NCBI RefSeq assembly: GCF_018141425.1
Contig: NZ_CP058561.1
Span: forward strand, 2,542,001-2,606,000
Reading direction: 5' to 3'
Origin: Vallitalea guaymasensis
GTDB lineage: Bacteria; Bacillota; Clostridia; Lachnospirales; Vallitaleaceae
Length of the DNA stretch: 64,000 bases
This document shows positions 3,391 through 15,011 of this stretch, in pieces (within the stretch, counting starts at the first letter, position 1; every line of letters begins with the position of its first letter). The position numbers and the translations under genes are program-made. The notes under the pieces were generated by a model. It worked only from the letters and a program-made list of their open reading frames with translations, did no database searches and was not told the origin of the DNA.

Positions 3391-3421
3391 TGTTGAGATA
3401 TAAATACCAAATGCCAATTTA

Positions 3422-5508: not shown

Positions 5509-6615
5509 ATGGCAAAGAAGAAGAAAAAAGACACAAAAACATTAAAAGCATTAGCTATATTTGTTTTGGTTATAGGAGCAGTATACTTAGGTCTTACAGT
5601 AGGAAAAGGTGCTTTTAAACCAGACACCACTGCTAAAGATGATAATGAGAACAATACTATTGCTAAGGAAGAAAATGATAATAAGGGAAAAACTGATAAT
5701 GAATTAGATGAAACTAATACTGAATCCGAAATTCACCCAGAAAAAGAAGTAAAACCAGAATCAGAAGAAAAGTCAGAGACAGAAGAACCTAAGGTGACCG
5801 AAGAAGAAAAAGACAGTGAAGAAGAAAATCCTTCTGACCAAGAAGATATCAAAGAAGAAGATAATGGGGAGATACCTCAGGGAAGTAGTACAGAAGATAA
5901 CTTTGATATGAATGTTGATGCATCTACTTTATCTAATAAAGGATATAGTTGGAGTTTCAAAAGAAATAAAGAACATAAAAAGGTAATTGGATATAACAAG
6001 TTTGATATTAAACAATATGGTGGTTACTATATTGTAGATACAGATGAAAAAGTTATCTATCTGACCTTTGATGAAGGATATGAAAATGGATATACACCTA
6101 CCATACTTGATACACTAAAGGCTAATGAAGTAAAAGCAACTTTTTTTGTTACGAAGCCTTTCATTGAGAATAATGCGGAGTTAGCAAAAAGAATGAAAGA
6201 TGAAGGTCATATAGTTGGAAATCATACTGTACATCATAAAAGAATGTATGAATTGACAGATGATGAAATTAAGTATGAGATAGAAGAAACAGCAAGATAT
6301 TTTGAAGAAATGACTGGATATAAGATGGATACATTCTTCAGACCACCAGAAGGAGCATATAGTGAAAGGTCTATATACTTAACTAGGGAGTTAGGATATA
6401 AAACAATTTTCTGGAGTATGGCTTATGCCGATTGGGATACAAATAACCAAAAGGGTAAAGAATATGCTTACAATCACGTAATTAATAATGCTCATCCTGG
6501 TATGATTTCGTTACTACATGCTGTATCATCATCTAATACAGAAGCGCTTGATGATATTATTAAAACATTAAAAGAGCAAGGTTACAGATTTGGTAATCTG
6601 TATGAAATTGAATAA
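5509..6615 (+). CDS. pdaA: PdaA-like polysaccharide deacetylase (muramic delta-lactam type)
   Basis: This 368-residue protein has a Lys-rich N-terminus, one membrane segment (about residues 12-32), a long acidic Glu/Asp/Ser linker (about 38-130) and a NodB deacetylase domain (about 165-365). Motifs match PdaA: LTFDEGYENGYTP (metal and catalytic Asp), NHTVHH (metal His pair), RPPEGAYSE, the segment IFWSMAYADWDTNNQKG and ISLLHAVS. PdaA removes acetyl groups from muramic acid when spore-cortex delta-lactam is made. The acidic linker is unusual compared with B. subtilis PdaA and suggests a membrane-anchored enzyme reaching into the wall. It appears to be a single-gene unit between two terminators. 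The assignment to the family is firm; the sporulation role is inferred. Confidence 0.85.
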   Translation: MAKKKKKDTKTLKALAIFVLVIGAVYLGLTVGKGAFKPDTTAKDDNENNTIAKEENDNKGKTDNELDETNTESEIHPEKEVKPESEEKSETEEPKVTEEEKDSEEENPSDQEDIKEEDNGEIPQGSSTEDNFDMNVDASTLSNKGYSWSFKRNKEHKKVIGYNKFDIKQYGGYYIVDTDEKVIYLTFDEGYENGYTPTILDTLKANEVKATFFVTKPFIENNAELAKRMKDEGHIVGNHTVHHKRMYELTDDEIKYEIEETARYFEEMTGYKMDTFFRPPEGAYSERSIYLTRELGYKTIFWSMAYADWDTNNQKGKEYAYNHVINNAHPGMISLLHAVSSSNTEALDDIIKTLKEQGYRFGNLYEIE

Positions 6616-6633
6616 ATGAAATGATTATATAAT

Positions 6634-6670
6634 AAAAAAATAGGAGCTGTATGCAGCTCCTTAATTTATA
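6634..6670. terminator. Bidirectional terminator between pdaA and ABC exporter
   Basis: The perfect stem GGAGCTG/CAGCTCC (6643-6660) has AATAAAAAAAT on its left and TTAATTTAT on its right. On the minus strand the hairpin is followed by a long T run, so it best serves the ABC exporter gene; it may also stop pdaA transcripts. Confidence 0.75.
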
Positions 6671-6699
6671 GACATGGTAAATATATTTTTAACTATTTT

Positions 6700-8418
6700 T
6701 TAGGATATAATTTTTTTATATAATTGACTTAGTTGCAATAATTCATCATGAGTTCCTATCTGGGTAATGTTCCCTTTATCAAGTAGAATAATTCTATCCA
6801 TATATTTTAATAATTCAGGTCTATGTGTAACACAAATCACAGTCTTATTTACTAAGTGAGAATTAATAAGTTTAGAAATATTAATTTCTGACCTAATATC
6901 AAGGGAAGAGGTTGCTTCATCTAAAATAAATATTTTTGAATCCTTGGCAATAGCTCTAGCTATTGCTATTTTTTGACTTTGCCCTCCTGACAGACAAGAA
7001 CCATTTTGCCCAATCATATACGAATCAGGAAGCGTATTATAAAAATCACTTAATTCGGACATAGATATTATATTATCAAACATATCATTACTTATTTTTT
7101 TATCTAATACAATATTGTCTTTTATAGTATTTTGAAATAGATGGGAATTCTGCATTACTGTAGCAAAGTGCTGTCTATATTCATCAATAGGATAGTAATT
7201 AATATCTGTATTATATAATAGAATTTTACCGTTATTAGGCGTATAAAAACGTAATAGTAAATTAAGCATTGTTGATTTACCTGAACCGTTATCTCCAATA
7301 AAAGCTATTTTTTCACCTTCTCGAATTTCTATATCAATATTACTTACAACGGTGTTGTTGTTATCATAAGCAAATGATACATCTTTAAAAGTTAAAATTG
7401 GATGTTTAGTAGGGAGACAATTATGAGTAATGTTCTTGTGAGTATTAGCTTCCATTTCATTTTCTAAGTCCATAAAATCAAAATAACGTCTAGCAGATGG
7501 TATAATACCTGTTAAATAGTAACCTATATTCATAATAGCTGATAATGGACTTGTTACTTTGATACTATAAGAAATAAGAGCTATTATACTTCCATAGCTT
7601 AATTCTCCACCAATAAGAAAGATAGCACCTACAATATATAAAATACTAATAAGAGTCTGAATGCTAATACTTTCTGTTACCATATTAATTTCACTAAGTA
7701 TATTTAACTTTTGTCTTATGTGAATTAATTCCTTTTGCTTAGATTTCAATTCAATTAGTTTAGTATTTATTAATCCGTATAACCTTACATCTTTTATGCC
7801 GGCAATAACATCACCATACCAGTTTGCAAACTCACTACTTTTATTAATAAATAATTTTTCATATTTCATACGCAATTTAGAAAAATATTTAGCACAAAAA
7901 AATTTAATGGGTGCAATACTTAATACTATAAGAGAAAGTTTCCAACTGATGAGGAATAATCCTACACAACTACCAATAATAGTAAATATCTGCGTGGTAA
8001 TGAATAAAATGTTTTTATCTGCTACTCGAGAAATATTATTAATATCAGTATATATTCTATTAAAAAGATCTGTATCGTTTATATCTCTAATTTCTTCAAT
8101 TTTAACTCTAGAAAGTTTCAAAAATGTTTTTTTATTTAATGTATAGACTATATTATTTTGCAATTTTATTCTTATTGTTTCTTGAATTAATGTCAATATA
8201 CCTTGTGAAACAGCCAGCAAAAGAAGGATTAGTGACATCTTAATTACTGTGCTTAAATTGTGTTGTAGTAAACCATCATCTGTTATATTCTTAATAATTA
8301 ATGGATTAATAATTGATACAACTGTTAGCATAATGACACATAGCATAATAAGAAAAAATTTAAACTTATAGGGTTTTAATAGTTTAATAACTTTCTTAAG
8401 TATACCAAAGTTATTCAT
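6700..8418 (-). CDS. ABC exporter (fused membrane and ATPase domains) of the RiPP cluster
   Basis: This 572-residue half-transporter has an N-terminal six-helix exporter domain (about residues 20-310) and a C-terminal ATPase domain. Walker A GDNGSGKST is at 375-383, the signature LSGGQ at 476-480, Walker B IFILDE at 496-501 and the switch His at 532. There is no N-terminal C39 peptidase domain, so leader removal must be done by another protein; the subtilisin-like protease encoded just upstream is the obvious candidate. ATG at 8418 follows GGAGAATCTC. The gene starts 20 bases after the protease stop codon, so the two form an operon divergent from the Cys-rich precursor. Likely role: export of the modified peptide; self-protection is also possible. 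Confidence 0.85.
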   Translation of the reverse strand: MNNFGILKKVIKLLKPYKFKFFLIMLCVIMLTVVSIINPLIIKNITDDGLLQHNLSTVIKMSLILLLLAVSQGILTLIQETIRIKLQNNIVYTLNKKTFLKLSRVKIEEIRDINDTDLFNRIYTDINNISRVADKNILFITTQIFTIIGSCVGLFLISWKLSLIVLSIAPIKFFCAKYFSKLRMKYEKLFINKSSEFANWYGDVIAGIKDVRLYGLINTKLIELKSKQKELIHIRQKLNILSEINMVTESISIQTLISILYIVGAIFLIGGELSYGSIIALISYSIKVTSPLSAIMNIGYYLTGIIPSARRYFDFMDLENEMEANTHKNITHNCLPTKHPILTFKDVSFAYDNNNTVVSNIDIEIREGEKIAFIGDNGSGKSTMLNLLLRFYTPNNGKILLYNTDINYYPIDEYRQHFATVMQNSHLFQNTIKDNIVLDKKISNDMFDNIISMSELSDFYNTLPDSYMIGQNGSCLSGGQSQKIAIARAIAKDSKIFILDEATSSLDIRSEINISKLINSHLVNKTVICVTHRPELLKYMDRIILLDKGNITQIGTHDELLQLSQLYKKIIS

Positions 8419-8438
8419 ATGAGATTCTCCTTTGTATA

Positions 8439-9983
8439 TTATGATAATAATTTTATTAATAAATCGAAAAACGATTCTATATTTTTTTTAGTTAAGCTTT
8501 CAAAAGTTAAACTATATTTTTGTTGGTTATCTGTTAATACACTTAGTATTATGTTATTATAATGTATCATGTTGATTTCTATAATTATGTCGTATTTTAG
8601 TTGACTGAGTATTTTATTATAATAATCTTTATTATCATTACTGCTAAACCATATATTTAAGTCATAATTAGCTAAGAACGTAAAATAACTAATATAATCT
8701 ATCGCTTTTTTATGGTCATTTCTAATGCAATCAAGAGGAATATAATCTATATCATAGAGTATACATGATGCCTCATCATTTATTAAATTGATATTATAAC
8801 CTTTTTTACCAAAGCATTCTCTTAAATAACATGAAAACATAATCACATCAATATTCTTATCATAGAATATGCAGAGATTTGGTATGTTAAGAATAGCATT
8901 ATGTGATTGATGAGAATTATTTAGGATTGCATTATATTTTAATTGATTATGCCATAACATATGTGCATTAATTTTATCGTAATTATGTTCGGGGTTAATA
9001 TTAATTAAAACGATATTTTTTTCTAGCGATAGTAATGAATCTAAGGATTCTTGATGAATATTTATAGGAGTCTTTGCTCTAATAATAAGTGTGTCAAAAG
9101 TATAATTTGCTATCTTATTCATTATTGACTCTATATTCATAGTTGAATAGGATAGATGTAAAATTATATCAAAATAATAATCCCATGAAGTTTTTTCATC
9201 ATAATCTATATCTATAATGATAGCTTTAATTATCCAATCTATATATAGATAATTTTTAATCCTGTTCTCATTCTTACAATCATTAACTGCATCATTTTTT
9301 AATTTATTCAAAAGAGTATTGATGTTAATATTATTATCTTCGCTTATCATATTGCATATCTTAGCAGTAATCATAGGTGTAGCAAAACTATTACATTTAT
9401 CAGAAGTATAATAATTATGTGTGATAGGGTTATATAACTTATGCTCTGAATATGCAACTATATCTATTCCATTTTGATATTTATTATTTAACATATAATA
9501 TTGATTCTTTGATAAATCATATATATTATTATAATCGCAACTAACCCCTATAGCATTAGAGAATGAAGATGGGTATGTTATAAAATCACTATTGGATGCA
9601 GCACATACAAGTATTATATTAAGACTTGCACATCTATTTACTATTTTTCGTATGGATTGCATATCATCAAAATATATACTTCCCAAACTTAAATTAACTA
9701 CATTAATATTATATTGTATACACCATTCTAGAGCTGTGTATAATTGAGTAATATTACCATTGCCGTTATGGTCTAATATCTTAATACTGCTTATACTACT
9801 TATGTTATGAGCATATTTTTCAATAATACTTGCACATATAGTACCATGTGTTAATTTGTCTTCACCATTACTCTGTAATAATATATTATTTGAGTTAATT
9901 TCTATATTTTTATTAATTAATTCTCCTGGTAAACATTTGGCAATACCATCATCTATAATAGCAACTCGTAATTTATTAGACAT
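8439..9983 (-). CDS. Subtilisin-like (S8) protease with long C-terminal domain, RiPP cluster
   Basis: Starting from ATG 9983 the protein has 514 residues. Residues 1-215 form an S8 domain with Asp11 (AIIDDGI), His46 (THGT), Asn131 (CAASN) and Ser199 (NSFATP); the usual GTS before the Ser-containing motif is replaced by CNS. There is no signal peptide and no propeptide, so it is probably cytoplasmic. Residues 215-514 match no family I know and are rich in Ile, Asn and Tyr. It is encoded divergently from the Cys-rich precursor and upstream of the exporter, so leader cleavage is the likely job (inference). An in-frame TTG at 10025 would add 14 residues, but the only good SD (AAGGAG, 10013-10018) lies just inside that extension. 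A hairpin between this SD and ATG 9983 may bring them together. Confidence 0.8.
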   Translation of the reverse strand: MSNKLRVAIIDDGIAKCLPGELINKNIEINSNNILLQSNGEDKLTHGTICASIIEKYAHNISSISSIKILDHNGNGNITQLYTALEWCIQYNINVVNLSLGSIYFDDMQSIRKIVNRCASLNIILVCAASNSDFITYPSSFSNAIGVSCDYNNIYDLSKNQYYMLNNKYQNGIDIVAYSEHKLYNPITHNYYTSDKCNSFATPMITAKICNMISEDNNININTLLNKLKNDAVNDCKNENRIKNYLYIDWIIKAIIIDIDYDEKTSWDYYFDIILHLSYSTMNIESIMNKIANYTFDTLIIRAKTPINIHQESLDSLLSLEKNIVLININPEHNYDKINAHMLWHNQLKYNAILNNSHQSHNAILNIPNLCIFYDKNIDVIMFSCYLRECFGKKGYNINLINDEASCILYDIDYIPLDCIRNDHKKAIDYISYFTFLANYDLNIWFSSNDNKDYYNKILSQLKYDIIIEINMIHYNNIILSVLTDNQQKYSLTFESLTKKNIESFFDLLIKLLS

Positions 9984-9988
9984 TATAT

Positions 9989-10018
9989 GTCGAGTATATA
10001 TCTCGACTCTCACTCCTT
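9989..10018 (-). promoter_or_regulatory. SD-hairpin-start arrangement for the S8 protease
   Basis: On the minus strand AAGGAG (10013-10018) is followed by the perfect 6-bp hairpin GTCGAG-ATATATA-CTCGAC (9989-10007) and then ATG at 9983. The linear distance from SD to ATG is 29 bases, too long; with the hairpin folded it is 10. A folded stem bringing SD and start together is known from phage T4 gene 38. Confidence 0.55.
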
Positions 10019-10126
10019 CCAGCAATTAGTTATGTATTATAATAATAAAATTTATATTAATTTATAAATAATTATATAATATTAAATAATTCTAATAATA
10101 AAATTTAATCTAATTAATACAGCATA

Positions 10127-10157
10127 ATTATATTAACATATTATATCGTCTTGTCAA
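10127..10157 (-). promoter_or_regulatory. Candidate promoter for protease/exporter operon
   Basis: On the minus strand TTGACA (10152-10157) and TATAAT (10127-10132) are both perfect, but the 19-base spacer is longer than ideal. The -35 box lies inside the GTCAA/TTGAC palindrome. Confidence 0.5.
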
Positions 10158-10213
10158 GTTTTGACGGTTTATCCTTTGAAACGTAAAATTATTAAATAAA
10201 ATAAACTTATTGA

Positions 10214-10242
10214 TTGACTATTTTAACAAAAGGGTATATTAT
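10214..10242 (+). promoter_or_regulatory. Promoter of the Cys-rich precursor gene
   Basis: TTGACT (10214-10219), a 17-base spacer and TATTAT (10237-10242) form a good vegetative promoter. The transcript would have a leader of about 100 bases before the precursor ATG. Confidence 0.65.
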
Positions 10243-10352
10243 ATATCTGGTGCTTAATAATTTTGATAATAATATGAGCACAGTATAATAAAAATCACCA
10301 ATAATAATTCATATTGATGATGTAAAACTAAATTATAGGAGGTTTTTAGTAA

Positions 10353-10535
10353 ATGAAAAAACTAGGAAAAAAAGTAATGAAAACTGGAAACACAATTAAG
10401 GCGCATATGTATTGTATGTGTAATTCTTGCGGATGCTATTGTAATTGTTGGGGCGACGAAAGTGCTAGTCATTCTTCTTTCTATAGTAGCCAATCAAGTT
10501 CTAGTTCAAGCTCTTACTATTCAAGGGTTAACTAA
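10353..10535 (+). CDS. Cys-rich RiPP precursor peptide (CLI_3235-like)
   Basis: This 60-residue peptide has a basic, Cys-free leader (residues 1-20, beginning MKKLGKKVMKTGNT) and a core with Cys at 21, 23, 26, 28, 30 and 32, so Cys alternates with other residues, ending in Trp33. The tail (34-60) has 14 Ser, including seven in a row (48-54), and several Tyr. A strong SD (AGGAGG) precedes the ATG. The leader and Cys pattern match what I remember of the CLI_3235 bacteriocin family, whose members sit beside the same radical SAM, TIGR04066 and carrier-like genes. The likely modification is thioether bonding from Cys to other residues (ranthipeptide-like), with the Ser/Tyr tail as possible acceptor. 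Product and activity are unknown. Confidence 0.88.
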   Translation: MKKLGKKVMKTGNTIKAHMYCMCNSCGCYCNCWGDESASHSSFYSSQSSSSSSSYYSRVN

Positions 10536-10737
10536 GAGAGAATTTAATTTAGTTCCTATTTAATACTTAGCATTACATTATAGCTTACATAAATGTGTAA
10601 TACAAAGCTGTTATTAATTATTAAAATGTAGAGTATACATTAAATATTTTTCTTTATTTGTATACAGGATATAAGTGGTGACAGTAAATAAAATAGGTAA
10701 TTAAATAATATGCTCAGTTACAAAGTTACGTCTGTAC

Positions 10738-10765
10738 GGAGGTGTCTCTGGTAAGAGACACCTCT
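10738..10765 (+). terminator. Attenuator-like hairpin between precursor and radical SAM gene
   Basis: A perfect 10-bp stem, AGGTGTCTCT (10740-10749) with AGAGACACCT (10754-10763), encloses a GGTA loop and can extend by two pairs. CTTACATG follows instead of a T run, so it would be a leaky terminator or an mRNA stabilising or processing stem. Such an element would let the precursor be made in excess over its enzyme. Confidence 0.6.
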
Positions 10766-10810
10766 TACATGTTCAGATAAATTTTATATAAACATAGGAG
10801 GAAAAAAAAG

Positions 10811-12253
10811 ATGCAGAATGATGCGTTACCTTTTATTCATTTATTTAAAACATATGAAAATACATATGTTTTTGATATAAATTCAAATGCAATATTTAAA
10901 ATACCTAAATATGTTTATGATGACTTGGAACATTATCTTAACAACAAAAAAATTACATTTTCATGTGATAAATCTAAAGAAATAATTGAAATGATGATGA
11001 CAAACGGTCTATTATCTAGTCACAAATGGAAATATATGGAGCATCCAAGTACATCTATTATACCACAATACCTTAAAACGTCGGTATCAACACTTACTTT
11101 ACAGATTACACAAGCATGTAATCTTATGTGTAATTATTGTCCTTATGCGGGTTCTTATCATAACAGAAAACATTCTTCCAAAAAGATGAGTTTTGAAACT
11201 GGTAAAAGAGCTATAGATTTTTATGTAAAGCATGCGGTTGATGTAGAGAGCTTGAATATAGGTTTTTATGGAGGAGAGCCATTAATTGAATTTGATTTAG
11301 TTAAAAGACTTGTTGAATATGCAAATGACACTTATAAAGGTAAAAAGATTAGATATCATATGACTACAAATGCCACTCTTCTAAAGGATGAAATTATTAA
11401 GTTTTTAGATGATAATAACTTTAATCTACTAATTAGCTTAGATGGTCCAAAAGAAATACATGATAAAAATCGTAAAGATTCTCAGGGAAGAGGTTCCTTT
11501 GACAGAATTTTAGAGAACTTAAAATATCTACAACAAAATTATAAAGATTTTGCTAGTAAGATAAATTTTAATTGTGTTATTGATCCTAGCTTAGATTTTG
11601 ATTGTTTACATAAGTTCTTCACAGATTATGATACTGTAAAGAATTACTATACATCTTTTAACTATATAAATAAACAAAATATCATAGAAGATAAATTCAA
11701 TCCAACTGAAAATTATACAATAAAATATAAATATGAGATTTTTAAATTATTTTTATTCCTTATTAAGCGATTAGATGAACGTCATGTATCTAAGATAGTA
11801 AAATCATATTATAGCGTACTATTTTCTACTATGAAGGAGAGACGAACCGTTTCATTTTCGGAAACTGAATACGGACATCATAGTGGACCGTGTATAGCAG
11901 GCAGTCATAAAATATTTGTTGATACAGAGGGAAACCTATTTCCATGTGAAAAAGTCAATGAACAATCAAAGAGTTTTATTATAGGAAATATTTGGGATGG
12001 ATTTGATGTAGAAAAAGCATCTAAGCTAACTAATATTGGAAAATTAACAGAAAAACAATGTTTATCTTGTTGGAACGTTAATTTTTGTTATCTATGTTGT
12101 GTTTTTTCTGACGATAACGGAACACTATCAGCTAATGCAAAATTAACTCAATGTAAAAATCTTAAGAGAGATACAGAAGAGATGATGAAAGATTATTGTT
12201 ATCTAAAAGAAATGGATTTTACATATGATGATGAAGTATTTAGAATAATCTAA
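10811..12253 (+). CDS. Radical SAM/SPASM peptide maturase (CcpM-like)
   Basis: This 480-residue enzyme has an N-terminal region (1-90) that may bind the leader, followed by the radical SAM core with CNLMCNYC (Cys103, 107, 110) holding the SAM-binding 4Fe-4S cluster and the GGEP motif (FYGGEPL). The C-terminal SPASM/twitch region has Cys361, 379, 417, 420, 426, 429, 430 and 448, enough for two auxiliary Fe-S clusters. Peptide-modifying enzymes of this type form thioether or C-C links in RiPP precursors. ATG at 10811 follows AGGAGG. It lies 275 bases after the Cys-rich precursor and is followed immediately by the TIGR04066-like gene. I recognise it as the Cys-rich peptide radical SAM maturase type (TIGR04068, from memory); the bond formed is unknown. 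Confidence 0.9.
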   Translation: MQNDALPFIHLFKTYENTYVFDINSNAIFKIPKYVYDDLEHYLNNKKITFSCDKSKEIIEMMMTNGLLSSHKWKYMEHPSTSIIPQYLKTSVSTLTLQITQACNLMCNYCPYAGSYHNRKHSSKKMSFETGKRAIDFYVKHAVDVESLNIGFYGGEPLIEFDLVKRLVEYANDTYKGKKIRYHMTTNATLLKDEIIKFLDDNNFNLLISLDGPKEIHDKNRKDSQGRGSFDRILENLKYLQQNYKDFASKINFNCVIDPSLDFDCLHKFFTDYDTVKNYYTSFNYINKQNIIEDKFNPTENYTIKYKYEIFKLFLFLIKRLDERHVSKIVKSYYSVLFSTMKERRTVSFSETEYGHHSGPCIAGSHKIFVDTEGNLFPCEKVNEQSKSFIIGNIWDGFDVEKASKLTNIGKLTEKQCLSCWNVNFCYLCCVFSDDNGTLSANAKLTQCKNLKRDTEEMMKDYCYLKEMDFTYDDEVFRII

Positions 12254-12273
12254 AAGAATTGGAGGGTGCAATT

Positions 12274-13380
12274 ATGAAAGAGGCAATTTTATTTCCATAT
12301 GACATATCTAATATACATCTATTAATGCATCAAGATATGTTAAGTGATTTTAGGATTTCTGGAGTAGTATCCCCTAATTCTTGGGGATATGCTGATGAAG
12401 ATGCTGGAAGGATATTAGGGATAGATACAGGATACATGGTTAGGTCTTCTTTTGAAGGTCTTATAGATCAATGTGAATGTGTCTTGTTTTGTGAATCTTA
12501 TCTTGAATTACCATATGAATCATTTCTAAAAGAGTATATTGAATATATAGCTCAAAAGGGTAAAAAACTCATTTTTTTAGGTGAATATGAACAACATTGT
12601 GAAGAAATAAAAGATATAGCTAAACACTACAATGCAGAATATGAATTTATTATTAAAAAAGATGATAAGAAATATGAAGAAATGTATTGTTACAAGATGA
12701 AAGATATTCCAGTACCCATAATAACAGTTATTGGAACTAATGAAAGAACAAATAAATTTGATACACAATTATCTGTTGGAAAGTTTTTCAGAGAACAAGG
12801 ATATAAAGTTTTACAAATCGGGACTAAGGGATATAGCAATATATTTGATATGATAGCATATCCAAAATTTATGTATAACCAAGAATTAAGTACAACTAAT
12901 AGAATCCAACAGTTTAACTATTACATACATTCATTATGCATTGAACAAAAACCAGATGTTGTAATATTAGGAGTACCTGGAGCTGCTTTCCCTATGGATA
13001 ACAAATTCCATAATAATTTTGGCTTTCACAATTACTTAGTTTCCAATGCTATATTATCTGATTATACGATCTGTAGTATACCTTATGAAGATTATAAAGA
13101 AGATTATTTTAATTATCTTAGTACCCATATTAAGTACAAGTATGGATATAATATCAATTGTTTTATTATTGCTAACCAAGCAATTAAGTGGGATGAAACA
13201 GATAATAGTGAAAAAATACAATATTTAACTCTTGATAAAGAGACAATGAATCGTAAGTGTAGACATTATTTAGATAAGAATTATCCAGTATTTAATATAT
13301 TTGATAGTAAACTAAATACTATGTTAACTCATTCTATTCTTGATGAGCTTTATAGTAATAGTGATGAAGAATTAATGTAG
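12274..13380 (+). CDS. Peptide maturation system protein, TIGR04066-like
   Basis: The protein has 368 residues from ATG 12274, which has GGAGGG seven bases upstream; an upstream in-frame TTG at 12259 overlaps that SD region and is rejected. The N-terminal half resembles a Rossmann-like fold (strands ending in VLFCES and KLIFLGEY). The middle, PIITVIGTNERTNKFDTQLSVGKFFREQGYKVLQIG, looks like a P-loop-like or DUF1611-type nucleotide-binding fold, though the classic GKT motif is missing. A later segment, PDVVILGVPGAAFPM, fits the same fold. I recall the family as one found only beside CLI_3235-type precursors. Its function is unknown; it may be a scaffold or a second modifying enzyme working with the carrier-like protein. 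Confidence 0.75.
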   Translation: MKEAILFPYDISNIHLLMHQDMLSDFRISGVVSPNSWGYADEDAGRILGIDTGYMVRSSFEGLIDQCECVLFCESYLELPYESFLKEYIEYIAQKGKKLIFLGEYEQHCEEIKDIAKHYNAEYEFIIKKDDKKYEEMYCYKMKDIPVPIITVIGTNERTNKFDTQLSVGKFFREQGYKVLQIGTKGYSNIFDMIAYPKFMYNQELSTTNRIQQFNYYIHSLCIEQKPDVVILGVPGAAFPMDNKFHNNFGFHNYLVSNAILSDYTICSIPYEDYKEDYFNYLSTHIKYKYGYNINCFIIANQAIKWDETDNSEKIQYLTLDKETMNRKCRHYLDKNYPVFNIFDSKLNTMLTHSILDELYSNSDEELM

Positions 13381-13399
13381 ACTTGAGAGGAGATTAAAT

Positions 13400-13648
13400 A
13401 TGACTGATAATAATATAAAAGAACAGATAGTTAATTTGATAAATACAGTAAAAGGTATTAATCTAAAAGAAGAAGATTATGATGAACATTTATTTTCTTC
13501 AAAAATTGATCTATCACCCCGTGACCTCGTATACGTCTTTTTAAAAATTGAAGAGTTATTTAAGACTAAGATACCTGAAGAGAATATAATTAATGAAGAT
13601 TTTATTACAATTAATAAAATTACAGAAATAGTATCATCAGTTAGATAA
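13400..13648 (+). CDS. Acyl-carrier-related protein of the peptide maturation system
   Basis: This 82-residue acidic protein has the four-helix layout of acyl carrier proteins; its C-terminal half (KIEELFKTKIPEENI) lines up well with ACP helices II-III. The phosphopantetheine site is abnormal: ordinary carriers have DSL, here the matching stretch reads KIDLSPRDL, with Ser one position off. It may still be modified, or it may act only as a protein partner. RBS GAGAGGAG is present, and the gap after the TIGR04066-like gene is 19 bases. It resembles TIGR04069 as I remember it. It is the last gene of the rightward RiPP operon, followed by a long hairpin. Confidence 0.78.
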   Translation: MTDNNIKEQIVNLINTVKGINLKEEDYDEHLFSSKIDLSPRDLVYVFLKIEELFKTKIPEENIINEDFITINKITEIVSSVR

Positions 13649-13661
13649 ATAATTATATCAT

Positions 13662-13712
13662 ATAGAACCATGGCTTAAACTAAACTGATTTAGTCTAAGC
13701 CATGGTTCTATA
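13662..13712. terminator. Long bidirectional hairpin ending the RiPP operon
   Basis: A stem of about 23 bp (13662-13684 with 13690-13712, one mismatch, centred on CCATGG) separates the convergent carrier-like gene and PHP gene. A perfect T run is absent on both sides, but the position and strength fit a shared terminator. Confidence 0.6.
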
Positions 13713-13724
13713 GCTATTTCATAA

Positions 13725-15011
13725 TTATTTTGAAAATAGTTTATTGTATAGGTTACTCACTTGACCTTTTAGACTATTTAACCTAACCTTGGCATTTTCA
13801 TCACCTGATATATGTTTTAGCATTAATTGTCCCTCTTCATAGCAAAGTTCATCATGTAGTGGAAAAACCTCTCTAATGAGGAATAGAGCGTATTTTACAA
13901 GACGGAAAGGTCCAACTGGTCTAACAGTCTCTCCAGCAGGGAACTCCACACCTACACTATATAGATCTTTAATGCTTTTGATTATATCTGGTTGTTCATT
14001 AGAAGGTGCAAAAACTATAGTATAGAACCAGCCGAACAGGTCTTTGTTCTCACAGCCATGTGCATCACTTACACCTACTATGGGTACTTTTTTACCCTTT
14101 GCTCGTTCTTCGTAATACCTAGCGATCTGTAAAGTATTTGATGAAAATTCAAATGGATGATATCCCCCTACAACTTCATTGGCATCATAAGGCTGATTAT
14201 CATACATAAAGTCAATTACAGAATTAGAGATATAGTAACCCGAATCAATCAACCAATATGGATGACAGAATATAGATAATCCCCCACCTTCTCTAATCTT
14301 ATCAAAGCACCACATGCTTGAAGCACATTCATATTTTGCATGTTCGTCATCAAGATTTATTGTTTTTTCAATTTCTTTTACTTCTTTATAATATTCATCT
14401 TTATTATCTTGCATATATTCATTTACACTGAAATCCCCACCAAAATTAATAATATGAACGTTGTTATTCTCTGGATGTACTTCTTCGCCTCTAGCTATTA
14501 GTATATCAAGATCAATATCTTTATAAGTCTCTTGGCATTCTATGGATGGATAATATTTCCCGTGGTCGGTTAATGCCATAAAATCAAATCCTATTTTTCT
14601 ACAAGAAGCAGTTACGAATCCAGGAGATTCCTTGCCATCGGAGTGATGGCTATGCATATGTAAGTCACCTTTATAAGGTATTCTATCAAATAAGTCTGCT
14701 CTGACAGAGTAGAAATTGAAAGTATATGATTTCTTGGTTGCAGTATCAGTAATTTTAATTATATGTTCTTGCTCTCCTATAAAATATTGAGTCAGTTGAA
14801 TAACACCATCTTTTGCTCGGACCATATACTTTTCTTGATAGTTATATTCACCAATGGTAGAAAAATGTTCTAAAGGATAATAAGCGACTTCAATATCGGT
14901 ATCAGAATCAAAAGTCGCATATTTTGCTAATGGTTTGATTTCAATTTCAGCAGTTGTATCAGCAAGTATAATCTTAGGCGTAACCTCAAAAAAACGTAAT
15001 TCTTCTTTCAT
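13725..15011 (-). CDS. PHP-domain metal-dependent phosphoesterase
   Basis: This 428-residue protein has a beta-rich N-terminal part (1-115) followed by a PHP domain. The metal-binding motif is KGDLHMHSHHSDG, with LTDHGKYY and FCHPYW and a C-terminal VSDAHG providing the remaining His/Asp ligands. Domains of this kind hydrolyse phosphoesters; the substrate is not evident. ATG at 15011 follows GGAGGAGG. It is divergent from an organophosphate-type transporter, so the two may handle a shared phosphorylated compound (inference). Confidence 0.75.
   Translation of the reverse strand: MKEELRFFEVTPKIILADTTAEIEIKPLAKYATFDSDTDIEVAYYPLEHFSTIGEYNYQEKYMVRAKDGVIQLTQYFIGEQEHIIKITDTATKKSYTFNFYSVRADLFDRIPYKGDLHMHSHHSDGKESPGFVTASCRKIGFDFMALTDHGKYYPSIECQETYKDIDLDILIARGEEVHPENNNVHIINFGGDFSVNEYMQDNKDEYYKEVKEIEKTINLDDEHAKYECASSMWCFDKIREGGGLSIFCHPYWLIDSGYYISNSVIDFMYDNQPYDANEVVGGYHPFEFSSNTLQIARYYEERAKGKKVPIVGVSDAHGCENKDLFGWFYTIVFAPSNEQPDIIKSIKDLYSVGVEFPAGETVRPVGPFRLVKYALFLIREVFPLHDELCYEEGQLMLKHISGDENAKVRLNSLKGQVSNLYNKLFSK

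Follow-up and report, generated by a model that had tools for sequence, protein, structure and literature searches.

Here we show that a locus of Vallitalea guaymasensis is a complete CLI_3235/CcpM-type cluster for a ribosomally synthesized and post-translationally modified peptide (RiPP), another member of a known, structurally unsolved kind, and that the length of the precursor tail in this family scales with the number of cysteines preceding it. The window analysed is a stretch of 64,000 nucleotides (positions 2542001-2606000 of a single-contig genome of 5.63 Mb). We consider it probable that the product is a nested thioether hairpin linking the Cys residues to a Ser-rich tail, made by the radical SAM/SPASM maturase CcpM with an accessory scaffold, cleaved by an S8 protease, and exported by an ATP-binding cassette (ABC) transporter. 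What is new here is the relation between tail length and the count of Cys, the fold of the TIGR04066 protein, the C-terminal domain of the S8 protease, and the loss of the carrier Ser in the carrier-like protein.

Gene content and family assignment

The genes of the cluster, with their scores against NCBIfam (TIGR) and Pfam (PF) models, are:

10353-10535, plus strand: precursor peptide; TIGR04065, 38.9 bits (E 7e-10, cut-off 26, model positions 1-34 of 34 covered); relatives with equal core and tail length at L040/L178, L179, and L187
10811-12253, plus strand: CcpM, radical SAM/SPASM maturase; TIGR04068, 581 bits (curated cut-off 500)
12274-13380, plus strand: TIGR04066 protein, predicted DUF1611 fold with altered P-loop; 336.3 bits (curated cut-off 200)
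13400-13648, plus strand: pseudo-acyl-carrier protein (TIGR04069-like) of 82 amino acids; 68.1 bits over the whole model (cut-off 70)
8439-10025, minus strand: S8 (subtilisin-like) protease with a C-terminal TIGR04066-like domain; PF00082, 73.7 bits
6700-8418, minus strand: ABC exporter, membrane and ATPase domains fused; PF00664 and PF00005

An earlier note on this DNA had named a CLI_3235-type maturation system and proposed a search with the four TIGR models as a check. The name was correct: TIGR04065, TIGR04066, and TIGR04068 score above their curated cut-offs, whereas the carrier-like protein, whose operon position fits, remains narrowly below that of TIGR04069. The S8 protease and the exporter that it assigned to the cluster are both real, the exporter gene lying outside the range that it gave (8439-13648). 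TIGR04065 and TIGR04068 each have one above-cut-off match in the V. guaymasensis genome and none in 14 named control genomes; below its cut-off, TIGR04068 matches 12 further stretches of the V. guaymasensis genome and likewise radical SAM proteins of most control genomes. Because the control genomes have no above-cut-off matches and a similar gene set recurs in relatives, the cluster is not a product of chance.

Precursor tail length and cysteine number

The precursor has 60 residues with Cys at positions 21, 23, 26, 28, 30, and 32 and a tail with 14 Ser, exactly as the earlier note described it; these Ser make up half of the 28 tail residues, and the leader probably spans about 18 residues (MKKLGKK...TIKAH). 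The description of the six-Cys core as unusual did not hold, given that a spacing of two accounts for 176 of the 298 Cys spacings in 70 precursors, more than any other, and that 3 to 8 Cys per peptide occur among 96 peptides chosen for at least 3 Cys. Precursors were collected with a leader model seeded with Cys-containing examples of 40-110 residues, and candidates were restricted to 40-130 residues; Cys-less peptides cannot appear in such a set, and L067, with fewer than 3 Cys, was dropped.

Across 70 distinct precursors, tail length rises with Cys number by 3.6 residues per Cys (Spearman rho 0.83). An initial definition gave a rho of 0.74, and the value of 0.83 was obtained when the Cys stretch was ended at gaps of more than 10 residues, excluding late Cys. 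Independent contrasts on a CcpM tree, built from 49 of 51 loci in which a piece of the maturase was present (for 12 of the 70 precursors none was), gave an r of 0.82 and a slope of 3.8 over 48 contrasts. With the scaling test fixed in advance, 26 later-found precursors gave a rho of 0.90 and a slope of 3.1. Seven of these were lost on dereplication, leaving 19 (rho 0.89), and 4 came from genomes of the first set, leaving 22 from new genomes or records (rho 0.87); reduced in these ways, the later set gave rho values of 0.86 to 0.89. The pooled 96 precursors gave a rho of 0.85, and the partial correlation was 0.83 after controlling for the number of non-Cys residues within the Cys stretch. Overall, the tail lengthens by approximately 3.4 residues per Cys. 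Mean tail lengths were 20.9, 21.8, 28.9, 29.9, 33.0, and 39 residues at 3, 4, 5, 6, 7, and 8 Cys, respectively, the last being a single peptide. Among close relatives, the window precursor and two Ser-tail relatives with Cys at the same six positions have tails of 28 residues, while L221 and L098, which have only Cys 21, 23, 26, and 28, have tails of 19 and 22.

If the tail supplies acceptors for the Cys, its length should track Cys number, as seen. The scaling thus offers indirect backing for the earlier suggestion that the Ser/Tyr tail may be a thioether acceptor. We read it as placing the acceptors in the tail, with a separate region for each Cys, which would be the topology of most sactipeptides, a hairpin. 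The tail holds at least as many Ser, Thr, and Asn residues as there are Cys in 93 of the 96 precursors. We found no published rule relating Cys number to tail length in the literature covered, most subscription journals being outside that coverage.

A comparison with precursors of relatives, which had been proposed as a further check, shows that the window tail is the most Ser-rich of 70, but also that its length and nine of its Ser recur elsewhere. Precursors of two genomes, G419 and G830, share the core YCMCTGCGCYCNCWGD, six Cys at identical positions, and a Ser-rich tail of 28 residues; both genomes probably belong to Ruminiclostridium, since two other genomes of that genus share a precursor with R. 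cellobioparum. The L040 precursor of G419 is 58% identical to that of the window and has nine tail Ser in common with it. At positions 37, 39, and 57, one of the two uses an AGY codon and the other a TCN codon, so that Ser has been retained across a two-base change. At the level of sequence, the shared Ser and the codon-family switches argue for selection and against simple slippage. The precursor was not found in any of the five other genomes of the window's genus (E 0.001).

Multiple precursors occur at some loci. L195 (G830:C1) carries the six-Cys Ser-tail precursor in two identical copies (8356-8631 and 13335-13610) about 5 kb apart, just one of which adjoins CcpM, and at L107 (2932-3632), from a Spirochaetales bin, a single CcpM is preceded by three CLI_3235 precursors in tandem whose cores differ.

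Maturase, accessory proteins, and protease

The radical SAM cysteines of CcpM (C103, C107, and C110 of the CxxxCxxC motif) and seven SPASM cysteines (C361, C379, C417, C420, C426, C429, and C448) are invariant in the 23 sequences aligned, out of 28 listed. Its closest solved relative is 5wgg (E 2e-55), with the alignment beginning at 5wgg residue 3 and including the N-terminal region. 5wgg is the SCIFF maturase CteB, whose N-terminal domain binds the leader.

The TIGR04066 protein was modelled from 63 sequences (62 of 68 listed plus the window protein) with a pLDDT, the predicted local confidence score, of 94.7. The model matches the DUF1611 proteins TM0796 (2g0t, Z 23.0) and Ava_3511 (2obn, Z 22.2) and also DgcN (7xrj, Z 18.5; identified by its PDB title, N-acetyltransferase DgcN) over their full two-domain length, and the next match scores 14.4. 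No relevant paper was found among those listed for DgcN and DUF1611. The alignment to 2g0t covers 302 of 368 residues (Foldseek E 2e-12), and a sequence search connects TIGR04066 to 2g0t at E 0.0027; Pfam DUF1611 was matched in 3 of the 63 relatives at E<=0.01, the window protein not among them. Identity to these three proteins is 10-14%, and their P-loop GK[ST] reads xKF in TIGR04066, with Lys (K161) conserved in 53 of 63 sequences and Phe (F162) replacing the Mg-binding Ser/Thr in 50 of 63. As modelled, TIGR04066 is a DUF1611-fold protein with an altered P-loop, and a published proposal of an ATPase-subunit-like immunity protein (PMC10731318) gains no support from the predicted fold or the P-loop. 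L144 (1751-3163) has one reading frame that is matched by the TIGR04066 profile and by that of the carrier-like protein, a fusion consistent with the two proteins working jointly.

In a PDB search the carrier-like profile hits carrier proteins (best E 1e-8), so that "carrier-related", the term of the earlier note, is apt for the profile; it is not apt for a working carrier, as Pro40 of the window protein occupies the phosphopantetheine Ser site and the protein does not qualify as a functional acyl carrier protein (ACP). In the alignment of 43 of 60 listed sequences plus the window protein, this column holds Pro or Ala in 37 of 44, Ser in 4, and Thr, Gly, and Asp in one each; two of the four Ser-keeping sequences are from distant loci (L150 and L152) that retain DS. 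Carrier chemistry by this protein is ruled out by the missing 4'-phosphopantetheine Ser.

The catalytic residues of the S8 protease (Asp25, His60, and Ser213, together with Asn145) are invariant in 25 sequences (24 of 28 listed plus the window protein), and the 50 listed of 1249 PDB matches to its model are subtilisins or engineered ones. Its reading frame opens with TTG at 10025, and the true start is likely the ATG at 9983, which is favoured by the alignment and by model confidence. A C-terminal domain spans approximately residues 257-528, of which 309-462 match TIGR04066 (hhalign 96.9%, E 1.5e-10; controls 0.5% and 0.1%), and, at E<=1e-4, the S8 profile also recovers 32 of the 98 reading frames of TIGR04066 (30 of 86 distinct). 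This similarity suggests that the domain may serve as a docking module. The N-terminal domain scores 86.9 bits against QhpE (NF049966), under the cut-off of 165. Maturation of quinohemoprotein amine dehydrogenase likewise combines a radical SAM maturase (QhpD) with a subtilisin-like leader protease (QhpE); its substrate is unrelated, and the window protease has an added TIGR04066-like domain. The exporter gene lies 20 bp past the S8 stop codon in the same operon direction, and no peptidase domain was matched in the exporter by Pfam.

Recurrence in relatives and comparison with known systems

TIGR04065 was detected in 14 of 391 genomes drawn from the class and 3 of 398 drawn from the phylum (E 1e-4, own genome in both). 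Of three families searched, one had it in 10 of 206 genomes, a second in 3 of 22, and the third in 8 of 397 at E 0.003 (6 above cut-off), these partly overlapping the earlier finds. TIGR04068 exceeded its cut-off in 3 of 59 relatives, own genome counted. A contig scan with a single maturase sequence as query found no relative, whereas a scan with the maturase alignment returned 80 named loci (the best 80 of 546), including Ruminiclostridium, Paenibacillus, Anaerocolumna, Lachnospiraceae, a Halodesulfovibrio, and a Spirochaetales bin. The accessory genes recur with the maturase: 62 strong-CcpM loci contained TIGR04066 in 53 cases, TIGR04069 in 49, an S8 protease in 33, an exporter in 30, and a precursor in at least 29, and for the 45 such loci of at least 12 kb the numbers were 42, 40, 28, 28, and at least 26, identical precursors being counted at the first locus only. 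In the Ser-tail clusters of G419 (L040/L194) and G830 (L179/L195), CcpM, TIGR04066, and TIGR04069 follow the precursor as in the window. G419 and G083, which are of one genus, probably Ruminiclostridium, each have six CcpM genes above cut-off and several different precursors; one of the six in G083 carries an internal stop codon. Viral contigs yielded 79 loci with distant radical SAM proteins only, and 4 plasmid records passed E<=1e-40, at identities of 30 to 37% and one partial match at 46.7%; no so-named gene was seen beside the radical SAM gene of the one plasmid inspected, whose gene table is incomplete.

Hairpin sactipeptides, such as subtilosin A, thuricin CD, and thurincin H, and ruminococcin C have a radical SAM maturase in common with the window. 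According to a survey of the class (PMC8326336), only two of the sactipeptides known in 2021 depart from a hairpin in which the N-terminal part supplies the Cys donors and the C-terminal part the acceptors. Known members generally have 1 to 4 thioethers, compared with up to 6 possible in the window, and differ in maturase family and accessory proteins.

The closest characterized system is SacP23. According to its report (PMC10731318), the whole Paenibacillus polymyxa cluster was expressed in B. subtilis, and the secreted product was purified and found active against Gram-positives, including methicillin-resistant Staphylococcus aureus; it gave a matrix-assisted laser desorption/ionization peak at 3404 and had a blocked N-terminus that resists Edman degradation, with the bonds unassigned. 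The earlier statement that no solved product was known is thus right as to structure, yet one product of this kind has been obtained and is active. The SacP23 sequence is given as "sacti5" in PMC7343975. Its cluster resembles that of the window in containing a precursor, ABC, TIGR04068, TIGR04066, TIGR04069, and subtilase genes, and the precursor has a leader of the form MRKLVKR..IEAF, 7 Cys spaced by two (6 in the window), and a 29-residue tail that holds Ser, Thr, and Asn and is less Ser-rich than that of the window. The published table lists additional sigma-24-like and unknown genes; in the window the protease and exporter are divergent. Fitting the mass of 3404 to combinations of fragment and bond count placed 11 of 6013 within 1 Da and permitted no conclusion. 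Other reports describe a cluster of CLI_3235/CcpM type without an obvious precursor in Roseburia intestinalis (PMC4573289), Blautia members of this type (PMC7872077), and CcpM as an already annotated enzyme (PMC9062424).

Proposed maturation pathway and alternatives

In the pathway that we infer, the N-terminal region of CcpM would bind the leader, and the enzyme would then link the sulphurs of the Cys in the CxC-rich stretch to tail residues at the Ser-rich C-terminus. The result would be a hairpin in which several thioethers, at most six, are nested. TIGR04066 and the pseudo-ACP would belong to a maturation complex as accessory or scaffold proteins without a carrier function, and to this complex the S8 protease, docked via its own TIGR04066-like domain, may come to cut off the leader near KAH/M; the ABC transporter would then export a product that is most likely antibacterial. 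We favour this pathway because the radical SAM/SPASM Cys are intact, tail length scales with Cys number, tail Ser are conserved, the accessory genes recur, and SacP23 is active.

Several points weigh against it. The scaffold roles of TIGR04066 and the pseudo-ACP are proposed from fold and sequence only, and the scores of CcpM against maturase models (RumMC 211, PapB 197, QhpD-type 187, and SCIFF 173 bits) do not separate sactipeptide from ranthipeptide enzymes. No CcpM product with a mass-defined bond or structure was found in the literature covered, and in the Ser-tail clusters of G419 and G830 no S8 protease or ABC gene was matched within the 20 kb examined. With regard to the scaling, L096, which resembles L098, breaks the rule: a further Cys at 18 brings it to five, yet its tail is just 19 residues long. 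A sign test on independent pairs gave a median p of 0.25 with 6 pairs, too few for significance. A four-residue periodicity of Ser/Thr/Asn in the first 70 tails (z 4.0; 3.7 in 59 dereplicated) had been fixed in advance as a test for the later set and was dropped when the 19 new tails left after dereplication gave a z of 0.0, with lag 6 prominent instead. In close pairs, of which only 3 were disjoint, conserved tail positions showed no significant periodicity.

A stronger form of the proposal, which we advance only tentatively, is that CcpM peptides generally are multi-thioether ladders in which every Cys of the CxC array (3 to 8) has its own tail acceptor, mainly Ser, Thr, or Asn, the tail growing by 3-4 residues per Cys, and that they are built on a hand-over complex of TIGR04066, pseudo-ACP, and protease.

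It is unlikely, in our judgement, that the peptide is instead a ranthipeptide, whose Cys would bond locally, at the beta or gamma carbon of neighbouring residues, the way freyrasin (Cys to Asp) and SCIFF peptides do. The scores of the PapB, QhpD-type, and SCIFF models close to that of RumMC are in keeping with such a product, as is the relationship to 5wgg; maturase models for alpha- and for beta-carbon linkage score alike. However, local bonds do not account for a tail length that tracks Cys number, and a freyrasin-type Cys-Asp ladder fails, as Asp is too rare: the Asp count reaches the Cys count in only 5 of 96 precursors, and that of Asp and Glu together in only 10 of 96, the window precursor having 1 Asp and 1 Glu for 6 Cys.

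Distinctly unlikely, too, is a TIGR04066 protein that acts as an acyltransferase or nucleotide-dependent enzyme and also modifies the peptide, for example at its N-terminus. The DUF1611-fold neighbour 7xrj is titled an N-acetyltransferase, SacP23 resisted Edman degradation, and the P-loop Lys is conserved; against this, the Mg-binding Ser/Thr is replaced by Phe in most sequences, a common fold proves no function, and N-terminal sequencing, according to the SacP23 report, frequently fails for sactipeptides and circular bacteriocins as well (PMC10731318).

There is a small chance that the Cys stretch binds metal or forms disulphides while CcpM makes another or a single modification. CxC arrays resemble metal-binding peptides, and a thioether was not found for any CcpM-family product in the literature covered; however, CcpM retains all Cys of SPASM enzymes, the nearest characterized models form thioethers, and metal binding does not predict the scaling of the tail with Cys number. 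It is very improbable that the poly-Ser tail has no role and is low-complexity sequence produced by drift. For all its extreme Ser content, relatives from another genus have a tail of equal length in which nine of the Ser are conserved, three with a codon-family switch, and the Ser run mixes AGY and TCN codons.

Regulatory elements

Apart from the genes, two elements were noted:

10738-10765, plus strand: RNA hairpin of 12 bp between the precursor and maturase genes; from fold z-score
13661-13712, no strand: inverted repeat with 17-bp perfect arms at the operon end, between convergent genes; read from the sequence

The 86-nt stretch 10715-10800 around the hairpin has a fold z-score of -4.24, and 1 of 200 shuffles was equally stable. 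A terminator scan of 9900-13800 found no canonical terminator-like site, including at the hairpin, which may raise expression of the precursor over that of the maturase. The inverted repeat, whose long loop excludes it from the terminator scan, is perhaps a two-way terminator; an Rfam match to MIR1513 at this site (29.7 bits, gathering score 95) was rejected as a chance match to a palindrome, and no Rfam element, riboswitches included, scored above gathering in 6500-14000. A further perfect inverted repeat with 6-bp arms and a 7-bp loop (9989-10007) lies between a ribosome-site-like AGGAG and the S8 ATG at 9983; it could pair up AGGAG and ATG, or regulate translation, with a fold z of -1.08 that is not significant.

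Implications

The CLI_3235/CcpM family extends over Clostridia, Paenibacillus, and beyond, and in the literature covered it has one active, structurally unsolved product, SacP23. The modelled DUF1611 fold of TIGR04066 redirects a lead that came from the published suggestion of an ATPase-subunit-like immunity protein (PMC10731318), and the missing Ser in TIGR04069 means that it is no carrier, redirecting that lead as well. The tail-length rule gives a concrete prediction of where acceptors lie and how many bonds are possible, and the four-Cys and six-Cys peptides with a shared core start provide a ready natural experiment. If the multi-thioether ladder were true, these peptides would have more cross-links than the 1 to 4 usual among the sactipeptides reviewed in 2021, and each peptide would be passed between enzymes on a complex of TIGR04066, pseudo-ACP, and a protease with its own docking domain.

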